Positions 20,745 through 28,736 of a stretch of DNA of 32,099 nucleotides are shown in pieces (the stretch's first letter is position 1; each line of letters starts with the position of its first letter). The stretch spans positions 1 to 32,099 of the forward strand of contig DYSW01000017.1 in assembly GCA_020726285.1 (NCBI GenBank), read 5' to 3'. The position numbers and the translations under genes are program-made. Origin of the DNA: Melioribacter roseus (GTDB lineage: Bacteria; Bacteroidota; Ignavibacteria; Ignavibacteriales; Melioribacteraceae). Under the pieces are notes generated by a model that worked only from the letters and a program-made list of their open reading frames with translations, searched no databases and was not told the origin of the DNA.

Positions 20745-21557
20745 CTATTTAATCAAAACCATTTTCTTTGTTTCGGAAAAAACTTGTCCAGGTTTGTCTA
20801 TGTTACTACTTTGAAAAACATAAAAATAAACACCGCTAGTTAAATTTTTTGCATTAAAATTCACTCTGTGATTTCCTGCATTCTGAATTTGGTTTACTAA
20901 AACTGCAATTTCTTTACCAAGAACGTCATGCACTTTGATTGTTACAAAATCACTTTTGGGCAAATAATAGCTAATTTCTGTTGATGGATTAAACGGATTT
21001 GGGTAGTTTTGTGATAAAAAATATTCGGCTGGATTTTGGTTTTCGTCAACATCCAGATATTCATTCCCCAAACCCATTGAAGTGGAAGGTAAAGTTACCC
21101 AATCTCCAACCCCGTTTGGTATTCTTCCCATTGAAATATCAGTTTCTTGCGGGCCAAAAGAAACAGAATCAATAATTGTTGTTCCATCAGATGCGGTTAA
21201 ACCAATTTGTTCGCCATCACCACTAAGTTTTATGTTTACATGCAAAACTCCAGCTCCTGGAATTTTATCGGCAAATAGAACAATAAATCCGTTTGCGGGA
21301 ATTGTTGTGGAGTCTGGATAAGTTGTAGGAATTTGCCAAAGTGTGAGATTATCCAATGCGTCAGTTATATACATTCCGCCAAGATCAACTGGTTCGGAAT
21401 TTGGGTTGTATATTTCTATCCAATCTGGATATTTGCCTGTTGTGGAATCGTAATAATTTGCGTCGTTACTTGCTAAAAATTCGTTTAAGTACAGATTTTG
21501 AGCATTTGTAATATTTAATAACAAAGCCAAAAGAAAAAATAGCGTAAATTTTTTCAT
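20745..21557 (-). CDS. Lamin-tail-domain protein with T9SS type A sorting tail
   Basis: A 270-residue exported protein. It begins with a signal peptide (MKKFTLFFLLALLLNITNAQ), followed by a lamin-tail (LTD) domain at about 21-160 (LNEFLASNDANYY, PDWIEIYNPNSEPVDLGGMY, ANGFIVLFADK, SGDGEQIGL). The last ~85 residues are a T9SS sorting domain: SQNYPNPFNPSTEISYYLP, an LGKEIAVLVNQ segment and TKKMVLIK at the end. LTDs of this INEFLASN type are typically found in secreted CotH-kinase-related proteins; no kinase domain is present here. The first half of the LTD is almost identical in DNA to the second LTD of the gene at 22459-23748. It is the last gene of the large minus-strand cluster. Confidence 0.93.
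   Translation of the reverse strand: MKKFTLFFLLALLLNITNAQNLYLNEFLASNDANYYDSTTGKYPDWIEIYNPNSEPVDLGGMYITDALDNLTLWQIPTTYPDSTTIPANGFIVLFADKIPGAGVLHVNIKLSGDGEQIGLTASDGTTIIDSVSFGPQETDISMGRIPNGVGDWVTLPSTSMGLGNEYLDVDENQNPAEYFLSQNYPNPFNPSTEISYYLPKSDFVTIKVHDVLGKEIAVLVNQIQNAGNHRVNFNAKNLTSGVYFYVFQSSNIDKPGQVFSETKKMVLIK
21202..21482. repeat. 281-bp direct repeat, copy A
   Basis: It matches 22604-22884 base for base at a constant offset of 1402, with one mismatch (21434 T against 22836 C, which changes Lys to Glu). The match ends sharply at both sides; the flanking LTD sequence is much more diverged. It lies inside the LTD of the T9SS protein. Confidence 0.95.
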
Positions 21558-21562
21558 AATAA

Positions 21563-22318
21563 TTATTCCCTTATGTTTTTTAGTTTATAAATATAAAGTT
21601 TATTTGTTTCATCATTTACAACGTAAAAAGTAGAATCGGTAAAATTTATTGCCAAACCTTCGAACTTTTCAAATTCAAGCGGCAAAACACTTGTTATTTG
21701 AAAAGAAGAATTTAGACTAAAAATTGCTTTGCTTTGGTCGCTTATCAACCAGATTGTGTTTGTTTTTTTGTCGTACTCCAAACCAGATAAATCTAAAACA
21801 TTCTTAATTTCTGTTTGCGAAATCGTTTGAAAAGATGAATTAGTAACAATAAACTTTGTTGGATCTTTTTCGTTGATTAATATAAATTTTCCAGAATCTG
21901 CACAAGTTATTCCTTCCAAACCGCTATTTCCGCTTCCTTCTGATTGAATGAAATTCCGTGAAAGTACATTCCCATCTAAATCCAATTTTATTACTTCTCG
22001 AATTTGTTCTTCAACCACATAAATTGAATTTGAAAATGAATCGAAAGCAATTCCTTCGAGATCATTTCCAACAAACTGTAATTCTTTGATGATTTTCCCT
22101 TCTAAATCGATTTGATATATTTTGTTCGATTGGTCGCTAACTATCCAAAGAGATAAATTATCTTTTCCGAAACACAAACCACTCGGTTCGGCAATTTGCA
22201 TTTGAAATTCTGCAATTAATTCAAGATTCTGAGATTGATAATTGCTCTCAGAATCAAGAATAGCACAACTTGAAATAAATACTATAATCAATATTGAGGT
22301 TGATAATTTAATTTTCAT
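21563..22318 (-). CDS. Beta-propeller lipoprotein (SdiA-regulated/YjiK-like)
   Basis: A 251-residue lipoprotein with the signal MKIKLSTSILIIVFISSC (lipobox, C18). The body is a repeated beta-propeller of the SdiA-regulated/YjiK-like type: EPSGLCFGKDNLSLWIVSDQ, GNDLEGIAFDSFSNSIYVVEE, SGLEGITCADSGKFILINEK and LSGLEYDKKTNTIWLISDQS. This fold is related to phytase-like and NHL-type propellers. The function of the family is unknown, and no phytase activity can be claimed. The 5' untranslated region contains the heptamer array beginning eight bases before the ATG. The gene ends five bases before the LTD-T9SS gene. Confidence 0.85.
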   Translation of the reverse strand: MKIKLSTSILIIVFISSCAILDSESNYQSQNLELIAEFQMQIAEPSGLCFGKDNLSLWIVSDQSNKIYQIDLEGKIIKELQFVGNDLEGIAFDSFSNSIYVVEEQIREVIKLDLDGNVLSRNFIQSEGSGNSGLEGITCADSGKFILINEKDPTKFIVTNSSFQTISQTEIKNVLDLSGLEYDKKTNTIWLISDQSKAIFSLNSSFQITSVLPLEFEKFEGLAINFTDSTFYVVNDETNKLYIYKLKNIRE

Positions 22319-22326
22319 TTTTTTTG

Positions 22327-22371
22327 AGTAATCAGTAATCAGTAATCAGTAATCAGTAATCAGTAATGAGT
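22327..22371. repeat. Heptanucleotide tandem array (AGTAATC)5-6
   Basis: Five perfect units of AGTAATC (22327-22361), a sixth with one change (AGTAATG, 22362-22368) and a partial AGT. On the minus strand it reads ACTGATT repeated and ends eight bases before the start codon at 22318, in the place where a ribosome binding site would be. Seven is not a multiple of three, but the array is outside coding sequence. A similar array in the same orientation to its gene opens the window (1-26). Confidence 0.95.
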
Positions 22372-22372
22372 G

Positions 22373-22449
22373 AACCGAAATTGTGCTTTAATCTAACTCC
22401 GTTAGGCAAGCTTTAAACTCAAAGTTTTCAATTCTAAACTATTTCGGTT
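22373..22449 (-). other. Structured inverted-repeat element in the cluster's only large gap
   Basis: AACCGAAAT (22373-22381) and ATTTCGGTT (22441-22449) are perfect 9-bp inverted arms. Between them are CTAAC-TCC-GTTAG (22393-22405) nested in GCTT/AAGC, and AGTTT/AAACT on the other side. The minus-strand RNA could fold as a three-way junction. There is no T-run, so it is not an ordinary terminator. It may be a REP-like palindrome, an RNA element or chance in AT-rich DNA. Confidence 0.4.
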
Positions 22450-22458
22450 AACTGCTTT

Positions 22459-23748
22459 TCAATTGTTGCTCGCTCCAAGTGTTGGTGTCGGGAAAGTTGT
22501 CCAATTTTCACTTCCATCTGGATTTCTTCCAAAAGATGTATCTGGAGCTTGAATATTATACGAAAGTGAATCAATAATTGAAATACCGTTTGGTGCAATC
22601 AATCCAATTTGTTCGCCATCACCACTAAGTTTTATGTTTACATGCAAAACTCCAGCTCCTGGAATTTTATCGGCAAATAGAACAATAAATCCGTTTGCGG
22701 GAATTGTTGTGGAGTCTGGATAAGTTGTAGGAATTTGCCAAAGTGTGAGATTATCCAATGCGTCAGTTATATACATTCCGCCAAGATCAACTGGTTCGGA
22801 ATTTGGGTTGTATATTTCTATCCAATCTGGATATTCGCCTGTTGTGGAATCGTAATAATTTGCGTCGTTACTTGCTAAAAATTCATTTATAAACAAAATT
22901 GGTTTAATATAACCAACTTGGAAAGACAATGTATCGCTTGTTGTTGTGTGCAAATCTTCATCGCTTGCGGTTATGAAATAAGTGTAAATAGTTGCATCTG
23001 CGACAGACGAAATTGTGGCTGAAAACACAGAGTCAGATAAAGTCATTGAAACTGAATTTCCATTGTAATTTAGTACAACATTCGTCAAATCTCCATCTTT
23101 ATCGGTTACAATTGCTGAAATTATAACATTATCGCCAGCAATTATTGTTTCAGGCGAAACCGAAATATCATTGATTTCTGGAGAATAACTTGCTACGCTT
23201 CCATTGTTTGATGAATTTGGAGTTGGTGAAGTAAATTGTTGCCAAGTTTCGCTTCCATCTGGATTTCTTCCTTCGGAAATATCGGTTGTTTGTGCAGTGT
23301 AAGTTATTTCATCAATTATTTTTAAACCGTTTTCTTCAGTTAATGTAATATCTTCTCCATCGGCAGAAAGTGCAAAATCAACGTGCAACGGACTTATTTG
23401 GGATTTATTATCACAATAAATCACTAAAAATCCACCAGCGGGAATTGTTGTTAGTTCTGGATTTGTTTTTGAAATTTGGGATTTTTTATAATCGTTTTTT
23501 GTGTCGGAAATGTACATTCCGCCAATATTAACAGCAGCTGTTCCGTAATTATAAATTTCTATCCAATCTGGAAAATCGTCTGTTTCTGCAAGGTAAAAAG
23601 AGGCATCGTTACTTGCTAAATATTCGTTTATTACTAATTTTATATCGCTTCCTTGCATTTGAGTTTCATCGGCAACATCACTTATATCGCATGATAAAAC
23701 GGTAAAAACAAGTAATATAATTGGGATTATTTGTTTGAATAATTTCAT
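22459..23748 (-). CDS. Lipoprotein with two lamin-tail domains and an Ig-like linker
   Basis: A 429-residue lipoprotein with the signal MKLFKQIIPIILLVFTVLSC (C20). It has LTD1 at about 38-175 (INEYLASNDASFY, PDWIEIYNYG, SADGEDITL), an Ig-like linker at about 190-285 (VSPETIIAGDNVIISAIVTD), and LTD2 at about 290-425 (INEFLASNDANYY onward). It ends after a FPTPTLGASNN segment without a T9SS tail, so it should stay anchored by lipid. The DNA for the start of LTD2 is nearly identical to that in the gene at 20745. AGAGGAG stands before the ATG, 11 bp after the porin gene. Confidence 0.9.
   Translation of the reverse strand: MKLFKQIIPIILLVFTVLSCDISDVADETQMQGSDIKLVINEYLASNDASFYLAETDDFPDWIEIYNYGTAAVNIGGMYISDTKNDYKKSQISKTNPELTTIPAGGFLVIYCDNKSQISPLHVDFALSADGEDITLTEENGLKIIDEITYTAQTTDISEGRNPDGSETWQQFTSPTPNSSNNGSVASYSPEINDISVSPETIIAGDNVIISAIVTDKDGDLTNVVLNYNGNSVSMTLSDSVFSATISSVADATIYTYFITASDEDLHTTTSDTLSFQVGYIKPILFINEFLASNDANYYDSTTGEYPDWIEIYNPNSEPVDLGGMYITDALDNLTLWQIPTTYPDSTTIPANGFIVLFADKIPGAGVLHVNIKLSGDGEQIGLIAPNGISIIDSLSYNIQAPDTSFGRNPDGSENWTTFPTPTLGASNN
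22604..22884. repeat. 281-bp direct repeat, copy B
   Basis: The partner of 21202-21482, with one mismatch in 281 bp. It lies in LTD2 of the lipoprotein gene. Same orientation as copy A, so recombination between the two would delete 1402 bp. Confidence 0.95.
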
Positions 23749-23759
23749 AATTTCTCCTC

Positions 23760-24971
23760 TTAGAAAAAGACCTTTGCCATAAGTTGAATAAAACTAAATT
23801 CATCTTTGCCAATTGCTGAGTTTTCGGATGTTTCTACCATTGTATAATTTAATTGAGTAACCATATTTGGGTTTGGATACCAATTTATTCCAAATGTATA
23901 ATTATTTGAGTTTCCACCGAGAATTCCAACTTCAGTATCTGAAAGCATCAAGTTACTAAATCTTGCGGCAAGTTCCCAAGCACCATTTTTACAATTTTTG
24001 GGAATTAGTTGGGAAAATTCCCCTTGAAGATTATCCCATTTTCGCGATTCGCCAGTTATCGTATAAGTTAGTAGTGCGTAACCGCCATTAAAATTAACTT
24101 GTTCTAATTCATTAAATCGATTTACTTGTAGAATTTGATATTCTGTTTGGAGATGTAATGCATCATAAACAAAAGCAAACTCAGTGGCATATCGCATTGT
24201 ATTGCTAACATCAAAAATGTTGTCTGTATCAAGAACTTCAACATCGCCAATTTTTGTTTCGGGTTCTGTTGCATAAGAAACCGCCCATTGATTATCGCTT
24301 GGTCTTTCCCAAACAGATGAAGCTCCCAAATGCAAAATCATTTTTTCGGTTTGAATTGGTGCTGTAACAAATCTTAATGCCAATCCGCCGCCTGTTTCAT
24401 CAGCAGTTTTATTTTTATTGATATCAAATGTTTGTCCGAATAACGCAGTGCGAACATTCCAATTTTTGCCCCATTTGGAATATTCCAACGACATTCGTCT
24501 TTCAACATCAAATGCGTTTGAGACTAAAGCTCTTTCTGGGAAAATAATATTTCTCGATGTTGTTAGAATTTCCAAACCGTAAGGAATTTTGAAATGTCCG
24601 AATTTTATATGCGAATTCTCAAAACCGTGATAAGCAAAAAACATATCCTTAAATTCCACAGTTCCTTCCGCAACATCAATATCCCATTCAGCTCGCCAAT
24701 CTTTCCAAAGTTGCATTTTTACTGCCATTCGAGCTTTTCGAAGATGTGTTCCGTTGCTGAATTCATTTTTTCCTTCAAAAAAATATGCTCCGTTTAGAAA
24801 CATTCTGATGTCAAATCTTCCATTGAAATCTCCATCGGCAGATTTCCAAAATAGGATTCCATTTTCCCATTCTGTTTTCCCCTCGTTTTGATTTTGTTGC
24901 GAGAATAAATTGCTTGTTAAAAGCAAGATGAATCCAAACAAAAATATTGTTTCTTTGAATGTTTTTCTCAT
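23760..24971 (-). CDS. OprP/OprO-like outer-membrane porin
   Basis: A 403-residue outer-membrane beta-barrel with a signal peptide ending in SNLFSQ. The sequence resembles the phosphate-selective porin O/P family: DFNGRFDIRMFLNGAYF, LRKARMAVKMQLWKDWRAEW, KDMFFAYHGF, IKFGHFKIPYGLE and ERRMSLEYSKWGKNW, and a final phenylalanine. In Pseudomonas such porins take up phosphate or polyphosphate; in Bacteroidota the family is broad, so anion selectivity is only suggested. AGGAGAAAC precedes the ATG. It lies 21 bp after the SLC13 transporter gene, which fits an outer- and inner-membrane uptake pair. Confidence 0.88.
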   Translation of the reverse strand: MRKTFKETIFLFGFILLLTSNLFSQQNQNEGKTEWENGILFWKSADGDFNGRFDIRMFLNGAYFFEGKNEFSNGTHLRKARMAVKMQLWKDWRAEWDIDVAEGTVEFKDMFFAYHGFENSHIKFGHFKIPYGLEILTTSRNIIFPERALVSNAFDVERRMSLEYSKWGKNWNVRTALFGQTFDINKNKTADETGGGLALRFVTAPIQTEKMILHLGASSVWERPSDNQWAVSYATEPETKIGDVEVLDTDNIFDVSNTMRYATEFAFVYDALHLQTEYQILQVNRFNELEQVNFNGGYALLTYTITGESRKWDNLQGEFSQLIPKNCKNGAWELAARFSNLMLSDTEVGILGGNSNNYTFGINWYPNPNMVTQLNYTMVETSENSAIGKDEFSFIQLMAKVFF

Positions 24972-24992
24972 AGTTTCTCCTATAATTTTGTT

Positions 24993-26777
24993 TTAAAATA
25001 TTCCAAAAACTCCGTTCGGAGTGTAATTCAAAAATCTTAACCAAGTTTCACTCCAAATTATTATCATTAACCAGCTTACAAACAACATTACAATTCCAAA
25101 TTTGAAAGTATCCGACCAACTGTAATGATCTGTTACATACAATAAAGCCGCGGGTTTGCTGTTGAAAGGAAGAGCGTAAACGTGTTCAATTAAAAGCGCA
25201 ACAGGAAATGCCAAACTTAGAATTGGGAAGCCAAATCGTTGTGCAATTCCGATAGAAATTGGGATGAAAATTAGAGTTCTCATTGTTTTTGATTGAAAGA
25301 AAAGTGAACTGAAAATCATTCCAGCAGTTAAAATTAAAAACAAAATTGTAAATGATGTTCCGCTACCAAATCCAAGATAATCAAAAAATGCATTTACACT
25401 AATAGATGCTAAATCTGTCGAACTCAATCCTTCGCCCAAAGTATAGGCGCCTGCAGAAAATAAAAGCAAATGCCAAGGAATATCGACATTATTCCATTTT
25501 AGAATACCAACTTTGGGTAAAAGCGATACAATTGTTCCAACAAAAACAACTGCGGTTTTACTTGTTCCGTGGTATTTATCTGTTGCCCACAAAAAAAGTA
25601 CCGCAAGAAAAATTATAATTGCTCGAACTTCCTCACCCGTAATTTTTCCCATTTTGTGTAATTCTTCTTTTAATCTTTCTATTCCGCCTGAAATTTGTGG
25701 GATTTGCTCTTCCTTCGGAATTCTAAAAATTAATTTTGTGCCAATCAAATAGCCTAAAAATAATAAAATGATTGAAAGTGGAAACGCGGCAATCATCCAG
25801 TCAGAATAGAAAAAATCTTCGGAGTTAATTGCTCCAGCAATTAATGCACCAGCAAGTAAATTTGCTCCAGAACCTGTAATAAATCCGCTTGCCGAAACGT
25901 TAATTTGAAATAGATTTTGTAGAATCAAATTTCTTCCGAAATTGTTTCTTCTCGTTCCGCCAGTTGCTCCATAAGTTGCTGCAATTACCATCATAATAGG
26001 TAAAAGAATTGCAGCTTTTGCCGTTGTAGCAGAAATAAATGCCGAAAGTACGACATTTATTATCATAAACGAAAAAAGAACCAAAGTTGAATTTTTACCA
26101 AATTTTACAATTAACCAGAGAGCAAATCTTTTGGCGACTTGCGTTTTTACAAGCATACTTGCAAGTACGAACGATAAAATATTTAACCACATTACTTGAT
26201 GACCAAGTTGGGAATACGCATCTTTTTCGCCCAAAACATTGGTTAAAACAAGCGACACAATCAGAATTAACGATGTTAAATAACTCGGAATTGCTTCAGT
26301 TACCCACAAAATTAGTGAAGCAAGAAAAATAGCCAGCATAAAAGCATTCTTTTTAGAAAAGGAAGAACTTTCCATTTTTTGCCAGACTGTTTTCTCGTTT
26401 TCAGATAATTGTAATTTTTCTATTGATTTTATTTTCCCTTTTTCAATTTTGGTAGATAACCGCGAATAAACCGTCTGTAACGAATCGGGAATTTGACTTT
26501 GGGAATTGTAAAGGATAACTTTCTGAGGATTTTCATATTCCGATTTTGCTTTTTCACTCAACAAATTAGGATTAATATTTGTCAGAAATGGTAATTCCAA
26601 TACAAACGCAAAAAGAATAAAAACAACAACTGCAAGAAAAACACCCCAAATTGACATCAACTTTTCAACTTTAGTTTGCTCTCGCAAAGGTAATTTTTCT
26701 ACTTTGTAATTATTCAAATCTAGTAGATCAAAATTATTTGTGGGTTGTGTCTTTTCTTCTATCACTTTTTCCATCAA
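24993..26777 (-). CDS. SLC13/DASS-type anion transporter
   Basis: A 594-residue inner-membrane protein of the divalent anion:sodium symporter family (substrates in relatives: dicarboxylates, sulfate, phosphate). The first TM (about 40-65) is followed by a ~75-residue charged periplasmic insert, then about 11 TMs. Landmarks are WVTEAIPSYLTSLI, SATTAKAAILLPIM (in place of the usual SNTAxTA), TGSGANLLAGALI, and FQSKTMRTLIFIPIS (second SNT-like motif). Both SNT motifs are altered, so substrate and ion coupling may differ. It ends 21 bp before the OprP-like gene and starts four bases after the two-TM protein gene. Confidence 0.9.
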   Translation of the reverse strand: MMEKVIEEKTQPTNNFDLLDLNNYKVEKLPLREQTKVEKLMSIWGVFLAVVVFILFAFVLELPFLTNINPNLLSEKAKSEYENPQKVILYNSQSQIPDSLQTVYSRLSTKIEKGKIKSIEKLQLSENEKTVWQKMESSSFSKKNAFMLAIFLASLILWVTEAIPSYLTSLILIVSLVLTNVLGEKDAYSQLGHQVMWLNILSFVLASMLVKTQVAKRFALWLIVKFGKNSTLVLFSFMIINVVLSAFISATTAKAAILLPIMMVIAATYGATGGTRRNNFGRNLILQNLFQINVSASGFITGSGANLLAGALIAGAINSEDFFYSDWMIAAFPLSIILLFLGYLIGTKLIFRIPKEEQIPQISGGIERLKEELHKMGKITGEEVRAIIIFLAVLFLWATDKYHGTSKTAVVFVGTIVSLLPKVGILKWNNVDIPWHLLLFSAGAYTLGEGLSSTDLASISVNAFFDYLGFGSGTSFTILFLILTAGMIFSSLFFQSKTMRTLIFIPISIGIAQRFGFPILSLAFPVALLIEHVYALPFNSKPAALLYVTDHYSWSDTFKFGIVMLFVSWLMIIIWSETWLRFLNYTPNGVFGIF

Positions 26778-26781
26778 TTTA

Positions 26782-28257
26782 TTAATAAATTTCTGTCCAA
26801 ACAGATTCTAATCGTTTAATTCCATTTCTATTTAAGATAAATCTATAATGACTAATTGTAGTTTCTTCGGCACTAATATATTTAATTACTAAATTCATAT
26901 TATAAACTCGTTTGCCAATTGTTGTGGCAAAACCGTTTTCAGTAAGTGCCGAAATTGGAATGCGTGGATTATCCATTTTGGAAAGTAATCGATTAACATC
27001 GAATCTAAAAATATTTGTAATTGCATCAGATTTATAATCTTTTATTGCTTTTTTGTATTCAGTGGGAAGTAATAATGTTTTTGTTTTATATCTGATTATT
27101 TTTTCTCTTGAAAACTTATTGTAAAATTCTTTGGCTCTATATTTATAATGAATTTCAAAAATTCGCTTTGGAATTTCTTCGTTCGATACAAAATCAAAAT
27201 CCTCGAAAAATTTGCCGATTTTCACCTTTTCGTCAGTGTAAAGTCGAATTCTATAATCATAAAAATCTTTTAAAAATCTTGAAGAAAGAAATTCCTTACT
27301 CATTTCTTTCATTCTATCTTTAAGAATGTAGCTTAAAACAAGCACAAACAACAGTTGAATTGTTAAGTTGCCATAAACAGCTTGATATAAAAACGCAACA
27401 GTAGTAGCAAAAAGCATTGCAAGTCCCGCCGCCATTCCAAACATAAATTGTTCAACCCACTTTGTGTTTTTTTCTTGATTTGTATCAATATGCAAAACCG
27501 AAGCAAAGTATTTTTTTAAGATATTAAAGCGAGTTAAAAACTCTTCGTTGTCAGAATCCACACTTGGAATTGAATGATATTCTTGTGCAATTCTGTAATC
27601 AGTTTCGTTTCTCAAAAATGTTAATAATTCTTCTTTCAGATGATTTAATTCAGATTTTTTGGCTTCATTGAGAAAGTTTAGAATTTTGAACAAATGCCTT
27701 TCTGTTAACAAACTTAAAAATTCATCTGAAAATGAAAAAACAGTTGAGTATTCATTTGAAATTTTTGGAATATCTACAATTTTATGAAGTGAGCGAAATT
27801 CCTTTTGAATTTTATGAATGCTACTCAATTCCGAATTTATCATATTCTGCATTTCGTTTACAGATTCACTTTTCATAATATTTTTTGCTGATTCTCGTAA
27901 TGCCGAGCCTAAAATATCTACAAAAATCTTGTTATGGAATTCGTAATCCGCAAAATTCTGTTTATTTGGGGCTTTTGCCAAAATCTGATATGAATTCTTC
28001 AATCGTATAAAAGGCGAAGTTTTACCATTCCAAATTTCTGACAAAGTATAAACTGGCGTTTTAAATCGAATATAATTTTGAATAGAATCATAAAAATTAA
28101 CTTTTCTAAAAGTATGCCGATTAATTCCTAATGAAGGAGGAAGAAAAATGTAAGTTTCTACTTCGTACTTTGCATTCTGATTATTCTTGTTGAATTTATA
28201 TTCAAGTTTTATTTCAAACTGAGTTTTATTATGAATTTTTACTGCTTCATCAATCAT
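26782..28257 (-). CDS. Unrecognised two-TM protein in the CYTH cluster
   Basis: I do not recognise the family. The start chosen is ATG at 28257 (491 residues); a TTG at 28275 would overlap the CYTH gene by ten bases. About 265 soluble residues come first: a beta-rich start (FEIKLEYKFNK, YEVETYIFLPPSLGINR) and then a helical section. Two TM helices follow at about 274-294 and 298-312 (GMAAGLAMLFATTVAFLYQ, TIQLLFVLVLSYIL), then ~180 soluble residues rich in Lys/Arg and Tyr, with a final beta-rich part (YNMNLVIKYISAEETTISHY). No signal peptide, so both soluble parts are probably cytoplasmic. It is packed between the CYTH gene and the SLC13 gene. Confidence 0.8.
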   Translation of the reverse strand: MIDEAVKIHNKTQFEIKLEYKFNKNNQNAKYEVETYIFLPPSLGINRHTFRKVNFYDSIQNYIRFKTPVYTLSEIWNGKTSPFIRLKNSYQILAKAPNKQNFADYEFHNKIFVDILGSALRESAKNIMKSESVNEMQNMINSELSSIHKIQKEFRSLHKIVDIPKISNEYSTVFSFSDEFLSLLTERHLFKILNFLNEAKKSELNHLKEELLTFLRNETDYRIAQEYHSIPSVDSDNEEFLTRFNILKKYFASVLHIDTNQEKNTKWVEQFMFGMAAGLAMLFATTVAFLYQAVYGNLTIQLLFVLVLSYILKDRMKEMSKEFLSSRFLKDFYDYRIRLYTDEKVKIGKFFEDFDFVSNEEIPKRIFEIHYKYRAKEFYNKFSREKIIRYKTKTLLLPTEYKKAIKDYKSDAITNIFRFDVNRLLSKMDNPRIPISALTENGFATTIGKRVYNMNLVIKYISAEETTISHYRFILNRNGIKRLESVWTEIY

Positions 28258-28265
28258 TTCTGAAA

Positions 28266-28736
28266 CTACTTCCAATATTTAAATGGATTTTTCATTAGCA
28301 TTGAATTATAATAATTGACATTTCCTGTAACTTCTTCACCAAGCCAATTTGGTCTTAAAAAATTTTCATTTTCGTCAGAAAGTTCAACTTCAGCAACAAT
28401 CAAACCTTCGTTTTCACCATAAAATTCATCAACCTCAAAAGTGTGATTTTCTGATTTCACAAGAAAACGAGTTTTGTCAATTACTCCCGCTTCGCAAATC
28501 TGAAGCAATTCATTAGCTTCTTCAACTGGAATTTCCTTTTCCCATTCATATCGCGAAGCACCAGCGGAATTGCCAATTCCTTTGATTGTGATAAAACCTT
28601 TTTCTCCCTTTATGCGAACACGAACAGTTCTTTCGGGAACAGAAGAAAGATAACCTTGTGTTATTCTTGTTGATTTACTTGCCAAATGTTTAAAATCATC
28701 TTTAACCAAAAACTTCCTTTCAATTTCTTGTGCCAT
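28266..28736 (-). CDS. CYTH-domain protein (triphosphate tunnel metalloenzyme)
   Basis: A 156-residue cytoplasmic protein that is one CYTH domain. The ExExK signature is at E4-I-E6-R-K8, followed by RITQGYL, RTVRVRIKGEKGFITIKG, RYEWEKEIP, DKTRFLV, FEVDEFYGENEGLIVAEVEL and WLGEEVTGN: the usual alternating charged residues that line the tunnel. Bacterial relatives hydrolyse inorganic tripolyphosphate or other triphosphates, or (class IV) make cAMP. The short form here is most like the tripolyphosphatase group. GGAG with a seven-base spacer precedes the ATG. It follows the divergent CYTH-like gene by 20 bp. Confidence 0.93.
   Translation of the reverse strand: MAQEIERKFLVKDDFKHLASKSTRITQGYLSSVPERTVRVRIKGEKGFITIKGIGNSAGASRYEWEKEIPVEEANELLQICEAGVIDKTRFLVKSENHTFEVDEFYGENEGLIVAEVELSDENENFLRPNWLGEEVTGNVNYYNSMLMKNPFKYWK

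Follow-up and report, generated by a model that had tools for sequence, protein, structure and literature searches.

A probable recent gene conversion between two neighbouring surface-protein genes of Melioribacter roseus, confined to part of their lamin tail domains

Two genes lying close together in the window (the whole stretch of 32,099 nt that was analysed; contig 116 of a draft assembly of 2.06 Mb in 140 contigs) encode lamin tail domains (LTDs) which are strongly diverged except for one segment of 281 bp, and the question is how this segment came to be nearly the same in both. Our reading, to which we assign a probability of about 0.93, is that approximately 281 bp of the second LTD of gene A (A-LTD2) were recently copied over the matching LTD of gene B by gene conversion without crossing over, between paralogous neighbours that are themselves old. 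The features of the locus are as follows.

20745-21557, minus strand: gene B, 270 aa, with a signal peptide (read off the sequence), one LTD and a T9SS type A sorting domain (Pfam LTD 2.1e-13; Por_Secre_tail 3.9e-9; TIGR04183)
21202-21482, minus strand: putatively converted tract of gene B (recipient copy), matching 22604-22884 at 280/281 positions and more diverged from gene B of the sister species G001 (17%) than the rest of the domain (11%)
21563-22318, minus strand: propeller lipoprotein (SdiA-regulated/phytase-like), 251 aa (PF06977 3e-21; PF13449 1.4e-13; lipobox-like VFISSC read from the sequence)
22327-22371, no strand: array of 6.4 copies of the heptamer AGTAATC between gene A and the propeller gene (TRF)
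22459-23748, minus strand: gene A, 429 aa, a lipoprotein with two LTDs (PF00932 3.9e-27 over two stretches; lipobox-like TVLSC read from the sequence)
22604-22884, minus strand: tract in A-LTD2, the probable donor copy; in the tract tree it joins the gene B copy, the two being sister to the A-LTD2 of G001
23760-24971, minus strand: porin O/P, a conserved upstream neighbour whose order is kept in relatives (PF07396 2.6e-57)
24993-26777, minus strand: DASS-family anion symporter (PF00939, TIGR00785)

PF00932 scores of 51.1 and 95.2 bits, against a Pfam gathering cut-off of 34.3, identify the domains as lamin tail domains. The C-terminal sorting domain of gene B also scores over its cut-offs (PF18962, 37.1 vs. 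27; TIGR04183, 34.9 vs. 23), and the product is a predicted T9SS type A cargo; some 50 sites across the genome match its tail.

The two copies of the tract stand in direct orientation at a spacing of 1402 bp and cover the N-terminal two thirds of the LTD, both genes being on the minus strand. Their sole mismatch is 21434 T/22836 C (1/281; 95% interval 0.01-2.0%). In the alignment of A-LTD2 with the LTD of gene B, mismatches number 6/15 before the tract and 59/142 (approximately 41%) after it, so the one-base difference between segments with strongly diverged surroundings, pointed out in the initial annotation, is exact. When the alignment columns were permuted, 0 of 20,000 permutations gave a run of 281 columns having one mismatch or fewer (the longest reached 83); the identity cannot be attributed to chance. 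High identity that breaks off abruptly at both ends, in paralogues diverged elsewhere, is a mark of gene conversion. The search for a third copy or another donor found none in the assembly.

LTD cores are conserved in sequence, and strong purifying selection on the protein might be thought to hold the segment identical. Yet over the 93 codons of the tract A and B show no synonymous change and a single non-synonymous one, whereas the same codons of gene B and its G001 orthologue show 18 synonymous and 16 non-synonymous changes. Nor is the tract more conserved than its surroundings between the A orthologues of this species and the relative G023 (31% different in the tract vs. 29% in the rest); this similar divergence means that repeated conversion explains the likeness of the paralogues better than constraint does. 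Selection on the protein is thus refuted by the synonymous sites, and we consider its chances negligible.

Conversion, in turn, predicts that different parts of the domain will tell different histories. Trees were built from 22 LTDs of the family, with the tract and the last third of the domain treated separately. As shown by the tract tree, (G001_B,(G001_A2,(own_A2,own_B))), with supports of 95/95, 97/92 and 100/99, the two copies of this genome group together, while in the last third each joins its orthologue (own_B with G001_B, 100/98; own_A2 with G001_A2, 95/88). AU tests rejected the pairing of own_B with G001_B for the tract (p=0.0004) and that of own_A2 with own_B for the rest of the domain (p=0.0008). 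The site patterns agree: in the tract, 0 sites favour orthology and 21 unite the copies within each species, vs. 31 and 2 in the last third (Fisher test between the two parts, 5e-13). Such a contradiction between the tree of a tract and that of its flanking sequence is what gene conversion produces.

The initial annotation had left the choice between recent gene conversion and recent duplication. G001, of the same genus, is syntenic across the whole region with approximately 94% DNA identity and keeps the order A, propeller, B. Since the LTDs of both A and B are already in place there, the loci predate the event, and the 1402-bp unit cannot have been duplicated or inserted recently; the conflicting trees and the diverged but syntenic sister strongly favour the conversion half of that proposal. 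Relatives do not show equal identity over the full LTD, named there as the outcome that would point to simple strong conservation. Gene A of G001 contains a 100-N scaffold gap (L079:7773-7872), so that LTD1 and the beginning of LTD2 are missing; an internal deletion of this gene, apparent in protein searches, proved to be that gap.

The direction of transfer was most likely from A, the double-LTD lipoprotein, to B, the protein with an LTD and a type IX tail, and is well supported by sequence comparison, although it rests on one sister species, G001, whose own copies are partly homogenised. In the tract tree own_B lies beside own_A2, with G001_A2 next, indicative of a transfer from A to B. The window differs from G001 by approximately 6% along the locus, with a peak of approximately 20% over the B tract and 10-12% in the rest of gene B (B tract vs. 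rest of B, taken alone, p=0.06); A-LTD2 differs from its G001 orthologue by 15-18% in the tract and by more after it. With its B copy over-diverged and its A copy no more diverged than its own flank, the tract looks replaced in B. The single difference in 281 bp, set against 14% between the A orthologues, implies that the event took place only a small part as long ago as the divergence from G001, so that conversion most likely occurred long after the two species separated.

This transfer would be accounted for if the directly repeated LTD copies recombined by a RecA-type homologous process that left no crossover. A RecA-dependent non-crossover route for direct repeats fits, as the near-identity ends on both sides of the tract, and such a route would be analogous to that of the tuf genes (PMC5485169). 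The exchange may have lasted because neither domain is harmed by sharing these N-terminal two thirds, or because both require them.

Homogenisation of this pair recurs in relatives. In G001, A and B differ at 32 of 230 comparable tract sites (14%) vs. 39% after the tract (p=4e-8); the homogenised part is shorter and ends near the same right border. In L094, which its coordinates suggest is the locus of G059, the tract tree pairs A2 with the second of the gene B LTDs (Bb), with support of 100/99. The contrast is weaker for A2 and B of G023 (21% in the tract vs. 39%; longest-run permutation p approximately 0.09), and the placement of G023_A2 and G023_B in the tract tree is unresolved. The pair was homogenised earlier as well, either in the common ancestor that this species shares with G001 or within the G001 lineage, and in a separate event in G059. 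Taken together, A-LTD2 and the LTD of B have been converted repeatedly, which amounts to concerted evolution of part of one domain. In more distant relatives the likeness lies instead among LTDs inside gene B (L090 B1-B3). Gene B of G035 (L090:7164-8367) carries three tandem LTDs with 91-92% identical DNA over units of approximately 400 bp, suggesting recent homogenisation or expansion inside one gene.

Could the tract of gene B have been filled by reads of the A copy during assembly? The source genome is a draft, the G001 assembly is gapped in gene A and a G023 contig stops at the start of the B LTD; these last two breaks suggest that LTD repeats may trouble assemblers. However, the two copies still differ at one base, each is flanked by unique sequence, and the single contig that holds them has no N; comparable within-genome likeness is seen in G001 and G059. 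We therefore regard an artefact as improbable.

Gene conversion is a known type of event and only the instance is new, a clear but ordinary case; our literature search for conversion of LTD genes found nothing specific. A close parallel is the partial-gene conversion of bacterial RF1/RF2 genes (PMC4530459), in which one domain was likewise converted repeatedly between old paralogues in several lineages, leaving conflicting signals along the gene. Those are translation factors, whereas here the genes encode surface proteins, lie 1.4 kb apart and include one recent event (99.6% identity). A set of 26 prokaryotic genes under long-lasting concerted evolution (PMC6053082) resembles the present pair in that within-genome paralogues are closer than orthologues, recurrently across lineages; here conversion is limited to part of one domain. 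The tufA/tufB genes of Salmonella share conversion tracts in duplicate genes, which are RecA-dependent there (PMC5485169) and presumably here, but they are near-identical over their full length and 762 kb apart, while in our case near-identity is bound to the tract and the distance is 1.4 kb.

Recombination between the direct copies was also proposed to delete 1402 bp and to join gene A in frame to the T9SS tail. The arithmetic holds, giving 534 codons including the stop, but the product is absent from all relatives with both genes: comparison of nine such loci revealed no fused gene, and the propeller gene stays between A and B in 9/9. The deletion is to be expected as a by-product of the repeats, but nothing points to its occurrence or use. 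One could imagine a recombinational switch in which cells lose the 1402 bp and make a lipoprotein-LTD-T9SS fusion, since direct repeats of 281 bp could plausibly support deletion and the fused reading frame is uninterrupted. Such a deletion would, however, be irreversible, the propeller gene is retained in every one of the nine loci, and a lipoprotein signal combined with a T9SS tail would make an odd cargo; a switch is very improbable. An ancestral fused gene that later split is unsupported, because both the family and more distant relatives show the order porin-A-propeller, followed by B where that gene is present.

Other members of the family, and more distant relatives too, repeat the order DASS - porin O/P - A - propeller - B; the conserved cluster spans 23760-28736 here and is also seen in L081 and L094. 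A Na/Pi cotransporter gene lies inside it in G059, genes for a PHO4-type phosphate transporter and a PhoD-like phosphatase are nearby in G023, and a CYTH protein gene lies upstream in this genome. Association with such genes suggests that the cluster handles phosphate or phosphate esters at the cell surface. DNA binding has been put forward as the role of LTDs in secreted bacterial DNases (PMC4486849), and DNA-degradation loci that include phosphate transporter genes also encode an LTD-nuclease protein (PMC8289736). It is conceivable, though rather unlikely, that long-term selection keeps A-LTD2 and the B LTD alike for a common ligand or partner at the surface in a phosphate-scavenging system made up of the DASS symporter, porin O/P, the LTD lipoprotein, the phytase-like propeller and the T9SS-secreted LTD protein, conversion then being co-evolution of two parts of one machine. 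For an uncultured lineage, the locus offers a clean case of gene conversion within part of a domain, roughly dated and oriented and repeated in relatives, and whole-domain trees of LTD proteins will blend two histories. It also draws attention to a conserved cluster of surface genes, in which the two LTD proteins may have a common partner.

Between the DASS and CYTH genes, 26782-28275 encodes a 497-aa protein without a Pfam or NCBIfam match, which is kept in G001 and G031. The AGTAATC array lies just before the propeller gene; three exact units occur at only one other place in the genome. In G001 the array is unexpanded, with a degenerate remnant only, and its length could differ between cells.
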